From a virus, in IMG/VR virus record IMGVR_UViG_3300048061_000231, positions 1 to 20,704 of that record: 20,704 bases of DNA, one strand, 5' to 3'. The notes under the pieces are model-generated. The model was not told where the DNA came from, did not search any database, and saw only the letters and a list, made by a program, of their open reading frames with translations. Shown one piece after another: positions 61 to 13,924 of the stretch. Within the stretch, counting starts at the first letter, position 1; every line of letters starts with the position of its first letter. The translations under genes and the position numbers were made by a program.

Positions 61-1314
61 TTAATACCCTGCGTATGCGTCTAATAGTTGATAGTCTTCT
101 TCTTCAAAGTCCGATGTGTATGCTATGTTAGCTAATTGGTCTATGTAAGCTAATGCATCAATTAAATCATCGTGTACTAATTGATTAGGAAACTGAAATA
201 ACTCATCAAGGAACTGACTGTTCCATTCTCCTTTGTTTAAGGAGATTGTACCATGTTCAAACCTGCCTTGTAAAGCCCAAACAATTCTGTCGGTTTTCTT
301 TTTATTGCCGTGGGTAAGCTCGTCCACTCTAAAAAACCGTTGATTCTTTTTCATGTAGTCGCTTAAGTATGGAAGTACAGCGTTCTTTAATGCTCCCTTC
401 TCTATACCTACTGCTACAGGTTGGTAGTCTCTGACTGCTTGGAAGATTCTTCTGGCAGTCTCTTGGACACCCCAACGCCCATGTACAATATTAGCAACCC
501 ACCAGCCTTCTTCGTTCGCTTTAACAATAGCGATAGCCGTTTGGTCAAGTCTTTTTGTCTTCGTTGTAACTTTAGCGACATCCGCAAAACCCGCCAAGTC
601 AACCGCAATGTAAAACTGACCTTGTTCAGGCTCTTCCTCAGAAAATTTAATATATTCTTCTTTAAAAAGTTCACTACCTTGAGCCTCAAAAGATGCCATA
701 AACTCCTGACGGAAGGAAAAAGCTGACATAGACTTTTGAGCCGCTTCAATCTCTTCAGGGTCTAGCAATGGGTTATCATAGCTTGTAAAATGAAAACCTG
801 CAAAACTAGGATCATCAGATACACAAGCGTATGTATATAGTTCATAAAAGTGATTACGTCCCATAGGCGTACCTATAAACAACGCATCACCCTTTTGGTC
901 AGCCAAGGCAGGTCTCAGTATCTGCTCCCAAACCTCTGGCTTCATGTCAGCGTACTCATCCATTACTAGGAACTTGAGGCTGACACCCCTCATTGTCTCT
1001 GGTCTATCCGCACCCTTTAGGGCAATTACAGCACCATTAATGAGTTTAATCTGTAGGTTATTAACGTGGCTAGAGGCTATGACGTTATGACCTAACTCTA
1101 GTAGCATCTGCCACATAATGTCCCTAGCCTGTCCCTGTGTAGGGGCAACGTAGAACACATGGCCTTTGGTATCACTAAGGGCGCGGAGTATTAACATCCA
1201 TGCCGCTAGTCTACTCTTACCTGTACGTCTACCTGCGGCTATAACTTTAAATCTTGTTTCGTTGTTATATACTTTCTGTTGCCACGGTAGAAGAGAGACA
1301 TTTAAGTCCGTCAA
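61..1314 (-). CDS. terL: Terminase large subunit (packaging ATPase-nuclease)
   Basis: This is the motor that pumps DNA into the prohead and cuts the concatemer. The ATPase half shows a Walker A motif AGRRTGKS (residues 27-34), a Walker B FLVMDE (115-120) and a coupling motif FIGTP (146-150). The C-terminal RNase H-like nuclease half shows the expected acidic residues: D239 in AVDLAG, E305 in GIEKG, and D382/D383/D386 in HDDLIDALAY. At 417 aa it is slightly short for the family but complete. The start is a TTG that overlaps the TGA stop of the upstream M15 gene by 4 bp (TTGA). No in-frame ATG exists before Walker A, so a non-ATG start is required. The identification is firm from the motifs; the subfamily is not resolved. 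Confidence 0.93.
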   Translation of the reverse strand: MTDLNVSLLPWQQKVYNNETRFKVIAAGRRTGKSRLAAWMLILRALSDTKGHVFYVAPTQGQARDIMWQMLLELGHNVIASSHVNNLQIKLINGAVIALKGADRPETMRGVSLKFLVMDEYADMKPEVWEQILRPALADQKGDALFIGTPMGRNHFYELYTYACVSDDPSFAGFHFTSYDNPLLDPEEIEAAQKSMSAFSFRQEFMASFEAQGSELFKEEYIKFSEEEPEQGQFYIAVDLAGFADVAKVTTKTKRLDQTAIAIVKANEEGWWVANIVHGRWGVQETARRIFQAVRDYQPVAVGIEKGALKNAVLPYLSDYMKKNQRFFRVDELTHGNKKKTDRIVWALQGRFEHGTISLNKGEWNSQFLDELFQFPNQLVHDDLIDALAYIDQLANIAYTSDFEEEDYQLLDAYAGY

Positions 1315-1691
1315 CTATAGCACCACATTACAGGAGACTCACCAACGTCCAACTTGCGGATGTCAACATGGACAAAGCTGTCAGCAACTCCGATACCGTT
1401 GAACCCCATCGCAGTGGCGTGTTTAACGATGTCATACCTTTGCTGAGAATTCTCAGTCCTGATGTCACAGGCGATACCTTGTGCGTGAGTTCCTGCAACT
1501 TTTTTCTTAGCCTCTATGGGATGACTAGGGTCTCTGTAACCACTAGTGATTATAAATGGAAAACCACATACATAACGTAGGTGATCTAATTTGGTTAGGA
1601 ACTGATCGTCAATCTTATTCTTACCTGTGTACTGACAGGCAAACTCTTCCCTGTTAAAGTATCTTAACATATCATTAATGTTATTAATCAT
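1311..1691 (-). CDS. M15 family peptidase, probable endolysin
   Basis: This is a zinc D-Ala-D-Ala carboxypeptidase/L-alanyl-D-Glu-type peptidase that probably cuts the peptide part of peptidoglycan at lysis. The M15 signature is clear: SGYRD near residue 50, GTHAQGIACD with zinc ligands H69 and D76, and a third ligand H108 in FVHVDI. The protein is 126 aa, about one catalytic domain, with no signal peptide or wall-binding domain, so a holin elsewhere would have to release it. The ATG at 1691 is chosen because GGGAG lies 9 nt upstream; a TTG at 1697 is too close to that site. The start overlaps the TerS stop by 8 bp and the stop overlaps TerL by 4 bp. Confidence 0.87.
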   Translation of the reverse strand: MINNINDMLRYFNREEFACQYTGKNKIDDQFLTKLDHLRYVCGFPFIITSGYRDPSHPIEAKKKVAGTHAQGIACDIRTENSQQRYDIVKHATAMGFNGIGVADSFVHVDIRKLDVGESPVMWCYS

Positions 1692-2094
1692 TGACAACTT
1701 CTCCCTCTAATGGGTCTTGCTGTTCATTACCAGAGATAACAGTGGTTTCACCACCTACTCCAGTGATAGAGATGTTGATAGCACTACGACCACCACTACC
1801 TCCTTTCTCCTTCTCAAAGTAACTGATAGGTAACATCCTATCCATTACCAACTTCCATGCCGCTGACTGATTCTTATGATCGTTGTCAAGAGCCGCATCA
1901 AAGATTGCATCCATCACTTTGCGTGACTTTGGGGACGCAAGCATCCTAGCTTTATAGTCGTTGATGATTGAAGCATCACCTTTGGGGCGACCTACCCCTT
2001 TTCTATTACCTGTTGTTTTAGACACTACAGATTTCTTTGGTGGCCGACCCTTCCGCTTCGCGGCAGTGGCTGACCTATCTATTTCTTTACTCAA
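1684..2094 (-). CDS. Putative terminase small subunit (basic DNA-binding protein)
   Basis: A 136-aa protein, first in the leftward operon and just upstream of the lysin and TerL, which is where T7-like phages carry TerS. The N-terminal third is very basic and has two AT-hook-like segments (KRKGRPPKK and GVGRPKGD). The middle (about residues 47-95) is predicted helical and the C-terminus is acidic, as TerS C-termini that contact TerL can be. The start is a TTG preceded by AAGGGGA about 5 nt upstream; no better start is visible. TerS proteins are poorly conserved, so the call rests on position, size and DNA-binding character. A transcription factor is the main alternative. Confidence 0.55.
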   Translation of the reverse strand: MSKEIDRSATAAKRKGRPPKKSVVSKTTGNRKGVGRPKGDASIINDYKARMLASPKSRKVMDAIFDAALDNDHKNQSAAWKLVMDRMLPISYFEKEKGGSGGRSAINISITGVGGETTVISGNEQQDPLEGEVVND

Positions 2095-2112
2095 AGTATT
2101 CCCCTTAGTTAT

Positions 2113-2197
2113 CTTAAGGATACTTAAGTAGAGTTTAGTTATTTTCTTTAATTATTAATAAAAGTAAAATACTATAGTTTACTTAAGGTACTTAAGG
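2113..2197. repeat. CTTAAG-centred short repeats (iteron-like)
   Basis: The hexamer CTTAAG occurs at 2113, 2122, 2182 and 2191, and again at 2404. TACTTAAGG is present as a perfect tandem at 2180-2188 and 2189-2197 and once more at 2402-2410; CTTAAGGATAC occurs at both 2113 and 2404. The first four copies lie in the leader between the leftward promoter and TerS. They could be binding sites for a phage initiator, for TerS (a pac-like site) or for a regulator; the sequence does not decide between these. Confidence 0.5.
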
Positions 2198-2235
2198 CGC
2201 GGATGGTTTCCTTTAACTAACTTAGTATACTTGAT

Positions 2236-2264
2236 ATTATAGCACAGATCAGTCTAAAAGTCAA
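2236..2264 (-). promoter_or_regulatory. Strong sigma-70 promoter for the leftward (TerS/lysin/TerL) block
   Basis: On the minus strand, TTGACT (2264-2259) is followed by exactly 17 bp and a perfect TATAAT (2241-2236), with an extended -10 TG one base upstream (TGCTATAAT). The predicted start is near 2229, giving a leader of about 135 nt before the TerS TTG. It is the best promoter match noticed in the window and implies that host RNA polymerase transcribes the late block. Confidence 0.8.
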
Positions 2265-2479
2265 GCATTATTTTCTATATTTACTAAATTATATTGAGTA
2301 CACCCAAGCCCCTTGTGTGTCAACCTGTGTGTCCCTTAACTGCTTGTGTCAAGACTAGGGGGCCACCTGTGTTTTCCTTATGTAATTCAAGGACTTAGGT
2401 ATACTTAAGGATACACCCCTTTTTTCCTAATTTACTCCTTTTTTGTATGCCAGAGGGTACTGTAACAATCCTGCGATAA

Positions 2480-2517
2480 CCCGCGGCCCCCCCGCCCCCC
2501 AACGGGCTCCCCCGGGG
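2480..2517 (-). other. GC-rich tract with G-quadruplex potential
   Basis: In otherwise AT-rich DNA the plus strand has C runs of 3, 7, 6 and 5 close together. The minus strand therefore carries G runs that satisfy the canonical four-run pattern with loops of 1-4 nt between 2480 and 2500, plus a further run to 2513. It ends about 20 bp left of the DnaA boxes. Folding in vivo is not shown by the sequence. Confidence 0.5.
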
Positions 2518-2537
2518 CTACATTAGTTATACATGAG

Positions 2538-2579
2538 TTATCCACGGCCTGTGCATAAGTCATCCACAGGTTATACACA
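2538..2579. other. Cluster of four DnaA boxes (candidate oriC-like initiation site)
   Basis: Four nonamers match the bacterial DnaA box TTATNCACA: TTATCCACG at 2538-2546 (8/9), TTATGCACA on the minus strand at 2558-2550 (perfect), TCATCCACA at 2560-2568 (8/9) and TTATACACA at 2571-2579 (perfect). The three plus-strand boxes start 22 and 11 bp apart, so they face the same side of the helix. Such density in 42 bp is unlikely by chance and suggests recruitment of host DnaA. Confidence 0.65.
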
Positions 2580-2714
2580 AGGCTCCATGTTGGCACGGGT
2601 ATTGCATGGGTGACCAAGGGCCGCCATTGGGTCGAGCTTATGTTTGACAGGTGAAGTGTGAGTATGCTAGTGGATACCTATAGAGCCACATGCAAACACC
2701 ATGCCACTTATGTA

Positions 2715-2742
2715 TTCACAAGATGAATGACGATTATATAGT
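2715..2742 (+). promoter_or_regulatory. Rightward sigma-70 promoter for the early block
   Basis: TTCACA (2715-2720, 5/6) is separated by 16 bp from TATAGT (2737-2742, 5/6). The predicted start is near 2749, about 63 nt before the first rightward gene at 2812. The 7-mer TGAATGA at 2724-2730 and its complement TCATTCA at 2765-2771 and 2786-2792 flank the -10 and initial transcribed region at spacings of 41 and 21 bp, as operator half-sites could. The promoter call is moderate; the operator idea is speculative. Confidence 0.5.
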
Positions 2743-2811
2743 TTACATTATATACATTAGCTGATCATTCAGGCACTGTAGCACTTCATTCATTTATACA
2801 GGTATATACAC

Positions 2812-3396
2812 ATGGCTACTAAAACTATGACAATCAAGCAAGCTAAGGCACTCGCGGCAGAGTTGGTACTAGGTACAGCGGTTAAGACTAAAGTTACTGA
2901 CGCGGTTAGTTCTCTATACTACAAACATATTGACGATAATCGCTTAGGTGCTGATACGGTAATGATAGAATTATGGTGTGGTTGCGCGGTTGATAAACCA
3001 TCACTCGCGGTAATAAGGGCAATATTTAATAGAGTCACTGCGAGAATACATAAAGAGTTAGATATAGATAAACGCGCTATGTGCGTTAAAGACGGCAAGT
3101 TAGTCGAAGTTCAATTCCGCGGTGCTAGTAAAGGCACGGGCAATGGTGGTGATGGTGAAGGCGATACTGGTAAAGCGTCTACAGGTGCAAGTGTAATAGC
3201 ACCTAATGGTCAAGCATTATCACCAGTCGAAGCACTAGCGGAAGCATTGTTTCAACTATCGGCATACGCGGAAGAACTAGCCAAAATAGAACAAGACAGC
3301 GAATTGTCACAATCAATTATAGATGTTGATCTCTCTCTATGTCAGATCAAAGAGAAACTATTGGAAGCATTGATTCCACTAGACAAAGCGGCATGA
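2812..3396 (+). CDS. Unknown early protein, two domains with Gly-rich linker
   Basis: First gene of the rightward block, 194 aa, not recognised. An N-terminal part (about residues 1-103) contains a CGC motif at 56-58 and mixed helix/strand sequence. A flexible Gly/Asp/Ser/Thr-rich linker follows at about 105-126. The C-terminal part (137-192) is helical and acidic, possibly coiled coil. There is no signal peptide or membrane segment. The ribosome binding site is weak (AGG about 9 nt upstream). A second ATG at 2827 is an alternative start. It uses GCG for alanine unusually often compared with the replication genes. Position suggests an immediate-early host-takeover or regulatory protein, but no function can be assigned. 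A hairpin terminator follows. Confidence 0.7.
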   Translation: MATKTMTIKQAKALAAELVLGTAVKTKVTDAVSSLYYKHIDDNRLGADTVMIELWCGCAVDKPSLAVIRAIFNRVTARIHKELDIDKRAMCVKDGKLVEVQFRGASKGTGNGGDGEGDTGKASTGASVIAPNGQALSPVEALAEALFQLSAYAEELAKIEQDSELSQSIIDVDLSLCQIKEKLLEALIPLDKAA

Positions 3397-6121: not shown

Positions 6122-6487
6122 ATGGCAGTATTAGAAGGTCTATTAGCATTTGAAAACTTGGAAGAGCATGAGATGTATCAGGGTCAATCAACAGGTAAGT
6201 TCTCTGTTGTCCTAACCTTGGACGATTCAACTGCTGACGAGTTGGAAGGCAAAGGCGTTAAGTTGCGTGAGTATGAAGGCGCAAAGCAACGGAAGTTCTC
6301 AACTAAGTACAGTGTCCCTGTGCTTGATGCAGAAGGAGGTTCATTCAAGGGACGTATTGGCAGAGGGTCTAAGGTTCGTGTCCTGTATGCAGAGGGACAG
6401 CCTCACCCTGTACATGGTACTTCAGTCTATCTCAACAAGATCAAGGTCTTAGAGCAAGCTGAAGATACTGGTGGAGAGGACTTCTAA
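6122..6487 (+). CDS. Single-stranded DNA-binding protein, T7 gp2.5-like
   Basis: A 121-aa protein of the size and character of compact OB-fold SSBs of T7-like phages. It coats ssDNA at the fork and contacts polymerase and helicase. The body is strand-rich with basic and aromatic patches (GKFSVVLTL, GRIGRGSKVRVLYAE). The C-terminus is acidic and ends in phenylalanine (EDTGGEDF), as in T7 gp2.5, where this tail binds the polymerase and primase-helicase. It is about half the length of T7 gp2.5 (232 aa), so the domain is minimal. AGAGG lies 8 nt before the ATG. The stop is directly followed by the primase-helicase ATG, placing both in one operon. Confidence 0.8.
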   Translation: MAVLEGLLAFENLEEHEMYQGQSTGKFSVVLTLDDSTADELEGKGVKLREYEGAKQRKFSTKYSVPVLDAEGGSFKGRIGRGSKVRVLYAEGQPHPVHGTSVYLNKIKVLEQAEDTGGEDF

Positions 6488-8107
6488 ATGACATCCTCGT
6501 TTGTCCGACATGAGCCATGCCCCAAGTGTGGCTCAAAGGATAACTTGGCGAGGTACTCCGATGGTCACGCCACCTGTTTTTCAGGTGGTTGTGACTACTA
6601 CGAGAAAGGTAACGGTCAGGTTATAGAACAAGCAACACAAAGAAAAGCGAGGCATTTGGAAATGACAGGAACAGTAGCGGCAATCCCTGACAGGAGAATA
6701 AGCCAAGAGGTGGCTAAGAAGTACGGAGTCACCGTTGAGTTTGCCCCTGATGGGAAGGTCAGTAAACATCACTACCCATACCACGACAAGGACTCAGGTG
6801 CAGTGTTAGGCACTAAGGTACGCATTGTGGACAACAAGAACTTTTATGCTACAGGAGAATTTAATAATGTTGGGTTGTTCGGTCAACAGGCTTTCAAGGG
6901 TGGCGGTAAGTACATTACGGTCACAGAGGGCGAGGCAGACGCACTTGCAGTTCACGAAATGTTTGACGGAAAGTGGCCTGTTGTCTCCATTAGAAGTGGC
7001 TCAAGCGGAGCATCAAAAGACATTAAAGAAAACCTTGAGTGGTTAGAGTCCTTTGAAAACGTAGTCATTTGTTTTGATGCAGATAAAGCAGGACAGTTGG
7101 CGGCTAAGTCTGTCCTTGATTTGTTCACCCCTAACAAGGCAAAGAATGTCGTATTGTCCATGAAGGACGCAGGGGATATGCTCAAGGCTAACAAGGTCAC
7201 AGCCTTTGTTCGTGAGTGGTGGAACGCTAAGTCATATCAGCCTGATGGAATCATTGCAGGTAATGAGACTTGGGATTTAATCATCAAGCAATCCGATGTC
7301 AAGTCCATACCCTATCCTTGGGCTTGTCTGAATGAGTACACCTATGGCTTCCGTCCGCGTGAGTTAGTCACAATCACTAGTGGTAGCGGCATGGGTAAGT
7401 CTCAGATGGTACGTGAGTTAGAACATTACTTGCTAGGTGCTACGGAGGACAACATAGGCATCCTAGCGTTGGAAGAGGACATACCTAAGACAGCATTAGG
7501 CATCATGTCCATTGAAGCTGAGAAGCAACTACATCTTAACCAGACTATCTCTGAGGAAGAGAAGAAGAGTTATTGGGATAAGACGTTAGGCTCTGGGCGC
7601 ATCTATATGTTTGATCACTGGGGTTCTACTAATGAGGACAACCTACTTGGGCGCATACGTTATATGGCTAAAGGGTTGGACTGTAAGTGGATTATCCTTG
7701 ATCACCTTAGCATTGTGGTTAGCGATCAGGACAATGGGGACGAGCGTAAAGCCATCGACAGCATTATGACTAACCTTAGAAAGCTAGTTCAGGAGACAGG
7801 TGTAGGGCTATTCCTAGTATCACACTTGCGTAGACCTAGCGGCTCAAAGGCGCATGAAGATGGCGGTAAGATTAGTTTGGGAGAACTACGTGGTTCAGCG
7901 GCTATTGCACAGCTAAGTGATATGGTCATTGGACTTGAACGAGATCAGCAACACGCTGACCCTGAGACACGTAACACCACAACAGTTCGTGTACTCAAGA
8001 ACAGATTTGTTGGACTCACTGGTGCGGCTTGTTACCTTTACTATGATAAAGAGACAGGTCGGATGATTGAAACTAGTTGCCCTATGGGTGAAGAATCGGA
8101 GTTTTAA
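6488..8107 (+). CDS. DNA primase-helicase, T7 gp4-like
   Basis: Bifunctional replicative enzyme (539 aa). An N-terminal zinc-binding primase domain has C11, C14, C30 and C35. The TOPRIM core has VTEGEADA (E148) and VICFDADKAG (D197, D199). The C-terminal DnaB/RecA-type helicase has Walker A GSGMGKS (298-304), Walker B IILDH (402-406), LFLVSH (441-446), GELRGS (465-470) and a likely arginine finger in KNRFVGL. The tail is acidic and ends in F (GEESEF), as in T7 gp4, where it binds polymerase. The ATG follows the SSB stop without a gap, with GGAGAGGA upstream. An internal ATG at codon 59 (6662) has GAGG 9 nt before it and could give a helicase-only form, as in T7. Confidence 0.95.
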   Translation: MTSSFVRHEPCPKCGSKDNLARYSDGHATCFSGGCDYYEKGNGQVIEQATQRKARHLEMTGTVAAIPDRRISQEVAKKYGVTVEFAPDGKVSKHHYPYHDKDSGAVLGTKVRIVDNKNFYATGEFNNVGLFGQQAFKGGGKYITVTEGEADALAVHEMFDGKWPVVSIRSGSSGASKDIKENLEWLESFENVVICFDADKAGQLAAKSVLDLFTPNKAKNVVLSMKDAGDMLKANKVTAFVREWWNAKSYQPDGIIAGNETWDLIIKQSDVKSIPYPWACLNEYTYGFRPRELVTITSGSGMGKSQMVRELEHYLLGATEDNIGILALEEDIPKTALGIMSIEAEKQLHLNQTISEEEKKSYWDKTLGSGRIYMFDHWGSTNEDNLLGRIRYMAKGLDCKWIILDHLSIVVSDQDNGDERKAIDSIMTNLRKLVQETGVGLFLVSHLRRPSGSKAHEDGGKISLGELRGSAAIAQLSDMVIGLERDQQHADPETRNTTTVRVLKNRFVGLTGAACYLYYDKETGRMIETSCPMGEESEF

Positions 8108-8109
8108 TT

Positions 8110-9840
8110 ATGAAACAGTTTGTACTTGACATTGAAGCCAACGGCCTTGACCCTGATACAGTATGGTGTATTGTTGTGCGACAGCTAGGACACGATGATT
8201 CCTTAACTTGGTCGGGAGATAGACTACCTGAATTTATAACTTGGTTACAACTGCAGGACGAGTGCGAACTAATTGGTCACAACCTTATAGGATATGATAT
8301 ACCTGTACTGGAAAAACTACTAGCGGTAGACTTTAGCAAGTGTAAAATAACTGACACACTGGTAATGTCCCGACTAGCTAATCCGTCAAGAGAGGGTGGT
8401 CATTCCTTAGATAACTGGGGTTCTATACTTAATTGCCCCAAAGGAGATCATAATGTTTGGGATGTTTTTTCGTATGATATGTTGGAGTATTGCATACAGG
8501 ACGTTAGAGTTAATGCGTTGGTGTACCAGAGATTACTTTCTGAGCTTAGAGGCTTTGAGTCTGAAAGTATTGATCTTGAGCATCAAGTACAAAGCATTGT
8601 TACTCAGCAGATTAAACAGGGGTGGCTCTTAGACCAAGAGAAAGCTTATCATTTACTGGCTACATTAAAGGAGAAAAAGAATGACCTTGAAGATGAAGTG
8701 CATCAGGTTTTCAAACCGTTACCGACATTTGTCAAAGAGATTACGCCCAAGTTTAAGAAGGATGGTACGCAATCGGTTGTTGGACTCAAGTTTCTTGGTG
8801 ATAACTGGGAGGAAGCGGTAGCACCCTTTAGTCGCATAGATTTCCCTGTGTTTAATCTAGGTTCAAGACAGCAGATAGGCAGACACCTACAGTATTATGG
8901 GTGGAAGCCTAAGCAATTCACTGAGACAGGACAGGCCATCGTTGATGAGGCAGTGCTAGGTACAGTGAAGGGCATACCACAGGCCGCTTTGATAGCTGAG
9001 TATCTTATGATACAGAAGCGTGTGGCTCAGGTACAGAGTTGGTTAGAGGCTGTTAAAGAGGACGGTAGAGTACATGGTTACGTTAATCCTAACGGAGCAG
9101 TGACAGGACGTATGACTCATTCCAGTCCTAACATGGGACAAGTACCTGCGGTTTACTCACCGTATGGTAAGGAGTGCAGGGACGTATGGACAGTACCAGA
9201 AGGTTACAAACTTGTAGGTATGGACGCAAGCGGTCTTGAGTTACGGATGCTTGCACATTACATGAATGACGAGGGCTATACAAATGAAATTCTCACAGGA
9301 GATATTCACACGGCAAATCAGTTGGCTAGCGGCCTTGAAACTAGAGACCAAGCAAAGACTTTCATATACGCTTTCCTTTATGGAGCAGGAGATTCCAAAA
9401 TCGGAAGTATCGTTGGAGGAAGTGCAAAGGATGGTAAACGACTTAAGGAAAAATTCCTTGGAAATACGCCATCTCTTGGAAGACTACGAGAACGAGTTGC
9501 AGTGGCATCTGGAAGAGGCTATGTTCTTGGATTGGATGGGCGAAGGGTCTATGTACGGTCACAACACGCGGCACTGAACACTTTGTTGCAGTCCGCAGGG
9601 GCTATTGTTATGAAGAAAGCCTTGTGCTTGTTGGATGAGTACGCAACTAAATGGAACATTGACTATAACTTTATAGGAAATATACACGATGAAATCCAGA
9701 CAGAGGTTAGAGAAGAGAAATCAGAGGTTTTCGGAGGACTTGCAACCAGTTGTGTCGAAGCCGCAGGAATCTACTACAAGCTCAACTGCCCCCTTGCAGG
9801 AGAGTTTAAAGTTGGAGATAGTTGGGCAGACACCCACTAA
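8110..9840 (+). CDS. Family A DNA polymerase with 3'-5' exonuclease, T7 gp5-like
   Basis: Replicative polymerase of 576 aa. Exonuclease motifs: DIEANGL (D7, E9), GHNLIGYD (D63) and YCIQDVRV (Y127, D131). Polymerase motif A is MDASGLELR (D372), motif B is RDQAKTFIYAFLYG (R412, K416, Y420) and motif C is IHDEIQ (H526, D527, E528). Y420 matches the T7 Tyr526/E. coli Pol I Phe762 position. The stretch between exonuclease motif III and motif A is about 60 residues shorter than in T7 gp5 (704 aa), so a thioredoxin-binding insertion may be missing. It starts 2 bp after the primase-helicase. The 3' end overlaps the T5orf172 gene by 29 bp. Confidence 0.95.
   Translation: MKQFVLDIEANGLDPDTVWCIVVRQLGHDDSLTWSGDRLPEFITWLQLQDECELIGHNLIGYDIPVLEKLLAVDFSKCKITDTLVMSRLANPSREGGHSLDNWGSILNCPKGDHNVWDVFSYDMLEYCIQDVRVNALVYQRLLSELRGFESESIDLEHQVQSIVTQQIKQGWLLDQEKAYHLLATLKEKKNDLEDEVHQVFKPLPTFVKEITPKFKKDGTQSVVGLKFLGDNWEEAVAPFSRIDFPVFNLGSRQQIGRHLQYYGWKPKQFTETGQAIVDEAVLGTVKGIPQAALIAEYLMIQKRVAQVQSWLEAVKEDGRVHGYVNPNGAVTGRMTHSSPNMGQVPAVYSPYGKECRDVWTVPEGYKLVGMDASGLELRMLAHYMNDEGYTNEILTGDIHTANQLASGLETRDQAKTFIYAFLYGAGDSKIGSIVGGSAKDGKRLKEKFLGNTPSLGRLRERVAVASGRGYVLGLDGRRVYVRSQHAALNTLLQSAGAIVMKKALCLLDEYATKWNIDYNFIGNIHDEIQTEVREEKSEVFGGLATSCVEAAGIYYKLNCPLAGEFKVGDSWADTH
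8234..8250. repeat. Variant palindromic element inside the polymerase gene
   Basis: TTATAAC-TTG-GTTACAA has the same two arms as copies 1-3 but a 3-bp spacer. Its flanks also match copy 2 (AATTTATAACTT before, GTTACAACT after). It lies within the polymerase coding sequence, so it may be chance or a weaker site. Confidence 0.3.
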
Positions 9841-11710: not shown

Positions 11711-12050
11711 TGACGCAACTCCTGCTGATTGGGATAGGGTAGCTAAGGAACATCCTGCTATAGAAAAAGTACCCAAGATAGACAAGGCTATGAAAGCTTA
11801 TGTAGACATGGCTGATGAAGAACTTGAGGATTTAGTTAATAAGCCAAAGCATTATAACACTGGCAACATTGAGTGTATTGAAGCTATAGAGGAGTCCATG
11901 TCTTCAGTAGCATTCAAAGGATACCTCAAGGGCAACTGTATGAAGTACCTTTGGAGGTACGACTATAAGGGCAAGCAGGTAGAGGACTTAAATAAAGCTA
12001 AGTGGTACTTAAACAAACTAACCATTATGGTTTCCAAGGAGAATAGTTAA
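11700..12050 (+). CDS. DUF3310 protein, related to T7 gp1.7 nucleotide kinase
   Basis: A 116-aa protein whose C-terminal two-thirds (47-108) carries the DUF3310 pattern: NKPKHYNTGNIECIEAIE, FKGYLKGNCMKYLWRY and KAKWYLNKL. In T7 gp1.7 this domain belongs to a nucleotide kinase acting on dGMP and dTMP. The first 45 residues are acidic/helical and not recognised. It lies directly before the ribonucleotide reductase with a one-base stop/start overlap (TAATG), so a nucleotide-supply role fits. Kinase activity is inferred from the relative only. Confidence 0.85.
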   Translation: MRLNDATPADWDRVAKEHPAIEKVPKIDKAMKAYVDMADEELEDLVNKPKHYNTGNIECIEAIEESMSSVAFKGYLKGNCMKYLWRYDYKGKQVEDLNKAKWYLNKLTIMVSKENS

Positions 12051-13924
12051 TGGATCAATATCAGCAGTTTATACATAAGTCTCGCTACGCACGTTGGATG
12101 CCTGAAGAGAAACGTAGAGAGACTTGGGAGGAGACAGTACAGCGTTATGTGGACTTCTGGGTTAACCGTGGACAGCTTGACAAGAAGACAGCCAAACGAC
12201 TGTACAACGGAATACACAGCTTAAAAGTAATGCCCTCAATGCGATGTATGATGACAGCAGGGGAAGCCTTAGACAAAGACAATGTAGCAGGGTTTAACTG
12301 TAGCTACTTACACATAGACTCACCTCGTAGCTTTGATGAGTTGATGTATGTCCTTATGTGTGGCACTGGTGTAGGCTTTAGTGTTGAGCGTAACTTCATC
12401 AACAAGCTACCAATGGTTGCTGAGTCCTTCCATAAAACTGACAGTGTGATTGTTGTTTCCGACAGTAAGATTGGTTGGGCATCTGCATTCCGTGAGTTGA
12501 TAGCTATGTTGTACGCAGGTAAAGTACCTCAGTGGGATGTAAGCAAAGTGAGACCTGCAGGAGCAAGGCTTAAGACATTCGGTGGTAGAGCAAGCGGCCC
12601 TGAGCCTTTGGTAGATTTGTTTAACTTCTGTATAGAGGTGTTCACCAAGGCTACAGGACGCAAGCTGACATCCATTGAGTGTCACGACATCTGCTGTAAG
12701 ATAGCTGACATTGTAGTGGTGGGTGGTGTACGTAGGTCTGCTTTGATTAGCCTGTCTAACCTATCCGATCCTCGTATGGCTAAGGCTAAGATGGGTGATT
12801 GGTGGCGTAGTGAAGGACACCGTAGACTAGCTAACAACAGCGTAGCGTACACAGAGAAGCCTGACTTTGAGTCCTTCCTGTCTGAGATGCAGAATATGTA
12901 CGAGTCTAAGGCAGGTGAGCGTGGTATCTTTAGTAGAGTTGCGGCACAGAAGATAGCCGCTAGGAATGGACGTAGAGACGCAGAGCAGGACTTTGGGACT
13001 AACCCTTGCAGTGAGATCATATTACGCAGTAATCAGTTCTGTAATCTGTCTGAGGTGGTTGTACGTGCTAACGATACCAAAGCTACCCTCAAGGAAAAAG
13101 TAGAACTGGCGGCTATTATAGGGACACTACAGGCTACTCTGACTGACTTCAGGTATCTACGTAAGTTGTGGCAGAGAAACACAGAGGAAGAGGCTTTGCT
13201 TGGTTTAAGCTTGACAGGCATTATGGATCATAAGGTCTTAAGCAATGACACAGCGTCAGCAAAGTGGTTGGAGGATTTAAAAGATGTGGCAATCAAAACT
13301 AATAAAGCTTGGGCAAACAAGTTGGGAATCAACCAGTCAGTGGCTATTACGTGCGTTAAGCCTAGTGGTACTGTGTCTCAGTTGGTCGATAGCGCTAGCG
13401 GCATTCATCCTAGGTTTTCTAAGCATTACATTAGAAGAGTTCGTTCAGACGCGAAAGACCCGCTTGCACAGTTCATGTCAGCAGGAGGATTCCCTGTAGA
13501 GCAAGACATTATGTCCCCTGCATCCTTAGTCTATAGTTTCCCTGTGAAGTCACCAGAGACTAGTGTTACAGTCAAACAGGTGGGTGCAATGGAACAGCTT
13601 AAGTTATGGAAGGCTTACCAGAACCACTGGTGTGAACATAAGCCAAGTATCACTGTTTATTATACAGACGATGAGTTCTTGGAAGTTGCTCAGTGGATTT
13701 GGAATAACTTTGACTTGTGCAGTGGGATTAGTTTGTTGCCAGTTAGTGATCATGTGTATCAGCAAGCTCCTTATGAAGACATCAGCGAGGATAAGTATCA
13801 GGAGTTAGTACAGCAGATGCCTGTGGGTATTGATTGGAATGACCTTGTTAACTTTGAACAAGAGGATAATACAACAGGCAGTCAAGAGTTAGCCTGTGTG
13901 GGTGGTGCATGTGAAATAGTGTAG
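12050..13924 (+). CDS. Class II adenosylcobalamin-dependent ribonucleotide reductase
   Basis: Monomeric B12-dependent reductase (624 aa), of the Lactobacillus leichmannii ribonucleoside triphosphate reductase type, which supplies dNTPs. Active-site residues are conserved: C84 (GFNCSYLH) and C331 as the redox pair; N318, C320 and E322 in NPCSEI, where C320 carries the thiyl radical; spacing C320-C331 is 11, as C408-C419 in the model enzyme. The C-terminal shuttle pair is C616 and C621 (ACVGGACEIV). It is shorter than the 739-aa bacterial enzyme, so parts of the N-terminus or the allosteric insertion may be reduced. The ATG overlaps the DUF3310 stop. No cobalamin riboswitch is visible. It ends the rightward operon. 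Confidence 0.93.
   Translation: MDQYQQFIHKSRYARWMPEEKRRETWEETVQRYVDFWVNRGQLDKKTAKRLYNGIHSLKVMPSMRCMMTAGEALDKDNVAGFNCSYLHIDSPRSFDELMYVLMCGTGVGFSVERNFINKLPMVAESFHKTDSVIVVSDSKIGWASAFRELIAMLYAGKVPQWDVSKVRPAGARLKTFGGRASGPEPLVDLFNFCIEVFTKATGRKLTSIECHDICCKIADIVVVGGVRRSALISLSNLSDPRMAKAKMGDWWRSEGHRRLANNSVAYTEKPDFESFLSEMQNMYESKAGERGIFSRVAAQKIAARNGRRDAEQDFGTNPCSEIILRSNQFCNLSEVVVRANDTKATLKEKVELAAIIGTLQATLTDFRYLRKLWQRNTEEEALLGLSLTGIMDHKVLSNDTASAKWLEDLKDVAIKTNKAWANKLGINQSVAITCVKPSGTVSQLVDSASGIHPRFSKHYIRRVRSDAKDPLAQFMSAGGFPVEQDIMSPASLVYSFPVKSPETSVTVKQVGAMEQLKLWKAYQNHWCEHKPSITVYYTDDEFLEVAQWIWNNFDLCSGISLLPVSDHVYQQAPYEDISEDKYQELVQQMPVGIDWNDLVNFEQEDNTTGSQELACVGGACEIV

Follow-up and report, generated by a model that had tools for sequence, protein, structure and literature searches.

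How a phage that carries a T7-type replisome and no RNA polymerase of its own starts to copy its DNA is the question raised by the locus described here, a short row of DnaA boxes in a 20.7-kb virus fragment (the window, meaning throughout the whole stretch of 20,704 nucleotides that was analysed) from a family of marine podoviruses. T7 itself initiates by transcription from its own polymerase, and a first-pass annotation of the window had proposed that the host initiator is recruited here instead, to an oriC-like origin in front of the phage replication genes. The genes and the junction concerned are:

61-1314, minus strand: terminase large subunit
1684-2094, minus strand: putative terminase small subunit, assigned by position alone (no family match)
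2095-2811: divergent intergenic junction of 717 bp, between the leftward terminase-side operon and the rightward early/replication operon
6122-6487, plus strand: gp2.5-like single-stranded DNA binding protein (SSB)
6488-8107, plus strand: T7 gp4-like primase-helicase
8110-9840, plus strand: family A DNA polymerase

The SSB, primase-helicase and polymerase genes begin about 3.5 kb into the rightward operon and are of T7 type, as had been proposed. The replication operon ends with a gene for a B12-dependent (class II) ribonucleotide reductase at 12050-13924, and family matches among the virion proteins include the portal and the head-tail connector.

Within the junction, two perfect and two one-mismatch copies of the DnaA nonamer occupy positions 2538-2579:

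2538-2546, plus strand: DnaA box TTATCCACG, one mismatch to TTATNCACA
2550-2558, minus strand: DnaA box TTATGCACA, perfect, inverted
2560-2568, plus strand: DnaA box TCATCCACA, one mismatch; L003, a close relative, has TTATCCACA here
2571-2579, plus strand: DnaA box TTATACACA, perfect

This arrangement is as first annotated, with the direct copies at 2538, 2560 and 2571 starting 22 and 11 bp apart; the inverted TTATGCACA is also present in many relatives. The whole window holds two perfect TTATNCACA boxes, both of them here, and 27 boxes with at most one mismatch against 24.6 expected, which is chance level, so that the signal lies in the clustering. When 42-bp stretches were scored at 2 per perfect box and 1 per one-mismatch box, the best cluster in the window reached 6; dinucleotide shuffles of the whole window (n = 300) never exceeded 3, and when the 717-bp intergenic region was shuffled 20,000 times, no shuffle reached 5 and five reached 4. 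Two other accounts of the array were rejected, namely that it is part of a hairpin (the fold is no better than that of shuffles) and that it derives from a plasmid origin (plasmid matches are few, short or weak).

That the cluster is real is settled by its conservation in relatives, which were gathered by terminase and primase similarity, the boxes not being used as a criterion, and which gave a comparison set of 56 dereplicated terminase/early-gene junctions. These junctions contain 139 perfect boxes (3.1 per kb) against 23 elsewhere in the same loci (0.042 per kb), a 73-fold difference in density, while control words of permuted letters gave a mean of 2.1 matches per set. The perfect boxes sit mostly beside the position of the terminase small subunit. 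The commonest distances between boxes on one strand are 22 bp (24 pairs) and 11 bp (21 pairs), 111 of 138 boxes share one orientation, toward the early genes, and the extended repeat unit is AGTTATCCACAGG, with spacers of 2 bp. Box position 5 varies, as the DnaA consensus tolerates. The phased boxes bear out the view that a DnaA-type array is under selection here, and we consider it very likely that the junction boxes are a binding array for host DnaA. The window holds a reduced copy, among the poorer ones; relatives reach seven perfect boxes.

Conservation is nevertheless only part of the picture. The array is present in 35 of the 56 junctions; 21 junctions have fewer than two perfect boxes and 20 of these have none, including several relatives whose primase-helicase is 73-84% identical to that of the window. 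On the terminase tree the state of the array changes at least nine times, by gain or loss, and these changes together with the boxless close relatives imply that the array is dispensable or replaceable. One pair of loci, L012 (no array) and L015 (array), is about 98% identical from the terminase side up to a C-rich stretch and begins to diverge at the array, so that array and downstream sequence appear to have been exchanged as a block, with the replication-side arm. No single neighbouring gene could be tied to the array: early genes conserved in boxed loci are also found in boxless ones, and those confined to boxed loci are present in a minority of them. Bacterial genome contigs checked for a host gave only marine MAG bins of mixed phyla.

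A single-subunit RNA polymerase, the enzyme of a T7-type transcription-primed origin, was found in none of the 20 records searched, near-complete relatives included, by a search that detects the enzymes of the control P-SSP7 and of Autographiviridae and was positive for 7 of 10 cultured or fosmid relatives. One of these records, G001, has proteins mostly 99-100% identical to those of the window (61-88% for some) and forms a circle through another gene, its ends overlapping by 565 bp at 98% identity, so its gene content is near complete. The absence of a phage RNA polymerase, as first reported, is thus upheld. It does not follow that recruitment of DnaA replaces the missing enzyme, and as a rule that claim has to be rejected, because close relatives without an RNA polymerase also lack the array and because the cultured phage phiEap-1 has both an RNA polymerase and an array in its terminal repeat. 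No phage DnaA gene was found in the near-complete relatives.

As for the hallmarks of an origin, the junction shows the consensus box cluster, helical phasing and common orientation of an oriC-like site. An adjacent, easily melted unwinding element is absent, the flank after the last box being more stable than average. One candidate lies at a distance:

2121-2181: 60-bp stretch, the second least stable in the window, to the left of the boxes by about 360 bp; a possible distant unwinding element

An AT-rich stretch 180-380 bp to the left lies opposite to the box direction and is also found in boxless relatives. The GC-skew minimum falls at the array or within tens of bases of it in G001, G004 and G008, and it falls at the junction likewise in the boxless G013; in G001 the skew peaks where convergent genes end, rather than on the far side of the circle. 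The skew thus appears to follow transcription, and it was set aside as separate evidence for an origin.

The junction carries several further signals:

2236-2264, minus strand: strong sigma-70-type promoter of the leftward operon (TTGACT-17-TATAAT)
2444-2459: imperfect palindrome GTATGCCAGAGGGTAC (M1), flanking the array on the left
2478-2518: C-rich stretch adjoining the array, in relatives with and without boxes
2590-2607, plus strand: sigma-54-type (-24/-12) promoter consensus TTGGCACGGGTATTGCAT, to the right of the last box, about 11 bp away
2662-2677: imperfect palindrome GTATGCTAGTGGATAC (M2), flanking the array on the right
2689-2706, minus strand: second copy of the sigma-54 (-24/-12) consensus
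2715-2742, plus strand: candidate sigma-70-type promoter of the rightward operon (TTCACA-16-TATAGT)

Sigma-70-type promoters serve both operons whether the array is present or absent, so the array is not required merely for their expression. TTGGCACGGGTATTGCAT matches the sigma-54 consensus in full, and most boxed relatives have one to three copies of it, unusual in a phage. The 56 junctions together contain 65 copies of the palindrome, GTATNC-N3-5-GGNTAC, which is absent from the rest of those loci and is a candidate terminase or end-formation site; the interval from M1 to M2 (2444-2677) may be a terminal repeat.

Other features of the junction stand apart from the array. CTTAAG is 17 times denser in its first 450 bp (2095-2545 in the window, and relatives) than elsewhere, at 6.7 against 0.39 per kb, and surrounds the leftward promoter with or without boxes. 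Inverted sites of the type GTGACC-N-GGTCAC occur in the boxless L062, L064, L026 and L059, and in degenerate form at 2611-2635 of the window. The leader of about 290 nt before the first rightward gene has a consensus fold of 79 pairs, in 22 of which both partners have changed with pairing preserved, and is a candidate new structured RNA, predicted at:

L157, 4612-4910
L086, 4831-5130
L122, 2042-2340
L138, 5452-5750
L042, 4110-4399

The leader had no credible Rfam match, and its single-sequence folding energy is not exceptional. That it substitutes for the array was rejected, as it occurs in boxed and boxless relatives alike.

Similar arrays are also found outside this family. In viral contigs, exact triple boxes make up at least 120 stretches at an 11-bp period and at least 120 at a 12-bp period, compared with 7 stretches at a control period of 10 bp and 1 for the reversed word. 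Among the 11-bp triple matches listed, 118 loci were fetched for comparison with the terminase gene; a family profile found the large subunit in 46 of them, in 44 of which the array is no more than 2.5 kb away on the 5' side, and a broader profile placed the array likewise in 53 of 64 loci against 22 expected at random. Roughly half of these terminase-associated loci are members of the window's own family, which leaves less independent evidence than the raw count suggests. The 12-bp arrays are only weakly associated with terminase (12 against 6.6 expected).

Among cultured phages, phiEap-1 carries an identical set of five boxes in each copy of its terminal repeat of about 195 bp, Klebsiella phage ZK1 has box arrays at both record ends, Shigella phage A7 and the T7-like E. 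coli phage P483 have theirs close to a gene for a DNA packaging protein, and the T5-like Spc35 has boxes inside its annotated left terminal repeat. Perfect DnaA-box arrays in cultured T7/SP6-like phages, all at record ends or near the packaging gene, are at:

KT321314.1, 71-174 and 39009-39112
OK625527.1, 19-198 and 45566-45745
MK685668.1, 22-135
KP090453.1, 37256-37359

No such annotation accompanies these arrays in the record stretches examined, and the literature searched, whose limited coverage bounds the novelty, yielded no paper on such arrays in lytic phages. Rows of boxes that recur beside the packaging gene and in end repeats probably mark where viral copying starts or where it is linked to packaging.

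We suggest that an array for host DnaA at the early/late junction, possibly within an end repeat, serves as an origin or as a secondary, terminal origin, a reading to which we give somewhat less than an even chance. Host DnaA would assemble on the array as it does on that of oriC, and the assembly would help to open the DNA there. T7-type primase-helicases such as T7 gp4 can enter single strands without a loader, so opening of the strands by DnaA would in principle suffice, and the phage enzyme could then enter. This would yield an origin, or else a secondary one linked to the region of the genome end. We stop short of calling the origin role more likely than not because arrays come and go within one family, because an adjacent unwinding element is lacking, and because arrays elsewhere lie in the terminal repeats of phages that have other ways of starting replication.

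The main rival, which overlaps with this reading, makes the array a terminal-repeat or packaging element, at which bound DnaA would act in concatemer processing, in duplication of the terminal repeat or as a fork barrier, and not in the main start of replication. The placement of the array 5' of the terminase gene in 44 of 46 viral contigs by the family profile, and in 53 of 64 by the broader one, favours such a role, as do the boxes in both terminal-repeat copies of phiEap-1 and at both ends of the ZK1 record, the junction-only palindrome that flanks the array, and the contig ends, only mildly enriched there when M1 and M2 were considered as possible physical genome ends. Yet no terminal repeat could be demonstrated in the family (the window is a fragment, and the circle of the near-complete G001 closes through another gene), the palindromes are kept in boxless relatives, and the array that lies 5' of the large terminase gene here lies 3' of it in cultured T7-like phages; on balance we think this rival rather unlikely. 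A transcriptional switch, in which DnaA would activate or repress the adjacent rightward sigma-54-type promoter and so couple early genes or origin transcription to host DnaA, is unlikelier again. It would account for the 54 sigma-54 consensus sites (shuffling predicts 0.2) spread over 26 of the 35 boxed junctions, compared with 3 of 21 boxless junctions that have the consensus, and for the mostly rightward direction of the sites and their frequent distance of 11 or 22 bp to the last box; it accords poorly with the 9 boxed junctions that lack the motif, with sigma-70-type promoters that are there regardless of the array, and with the finding of no sigma-54 activator gene in the phages searched.

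Titration of host DnaA in the manner of datA, by which the boxes would curb host replication, we regard as improbable: box density is high at one site, and arrays also occur in the first-entering DNA of a T5-like phage, but each genome has only 2-7 perfect boxes, sited at one functional junction, and positions 1900-3000 contain no strict IHF consensus. Chance or decaying sequence without function is scarcely credible for the window, whose copy is down to two perfect boxes in a family where some lineages have lost the array, and it is refuted for the family by conservation and phasing across dozens of relatives. Of these explanations the origin role is the best single mechanism. Its extension, that several lineages of tailed phages with terminal repeats gained phased DnaA arrays independently, and that host DnaA there starts synthesis by a T7-type replisome without the host helicase loader, as the main origin or in terminal-repeat duplication, is a conjecture that we advance only tentatively.

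Two wider questions are how replication begins in T7-type phages that lack an RNA polymerase of their own, which sequence alone does not settle, and how T7-like phages duplicate their terminal repeats. A conserved junction array, met again in end repeats among cultured T7/SP6-like phages, brings both within reach of direct tests in laboratory strains, and an array bound by host DnaA would link the host's control of initiation to phage replication or packaging.

Among known systems, lambda replication uses the O and P proteins, and the boxes of ori-lambda are not known to form such an array. Transcription at ori-lambda is stimulated by DnaA (PMC8203912), and the likeness is that host DnaA would act on a phage replication region. 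The origin of the P1 plasmid, oriR, can be opened by DnaA alone (PMC5043065), with DnaA boxes that are carried by the phage and used by host DnaA (PMC5043065, PMC4980987); unlike P1, a temperate phage-plasmid with RepA iterons, the window's family has no comparable initiator gene that we could recognise. In the arrays of E. coli oriC the sites are 2 bp apart, on one helix face and mostly in the same direction (PMC4451416), and the family's 9-mers share these 2-bp spacers, common face and prevailing direction. The phage boxes are near-consensus, however, whereas those of the low-affinity oriC arrays are weak, and unlike bacterial oriC the phage array has no adjacent unwinding element and belongs to a phage with its own helicase-primase. 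Autographiviridae and HMO-2011-like marine phages (Pelagibacter and Roseobacter phages) have primase-helicases 45-50% identical to that of the window, but the cultured or fosmid relatives of these groups that were checked have no comparable box array, and most have an RNA polymerase. A parallel in placement is seen with phiEap-1, Shigella A7, Klebsiella ZK1 and their relatives, in which perfect TTATCCACA boxes, often 21-22 bp apart (mostly two turns), lie beside a packaging gene or in an end repeat.
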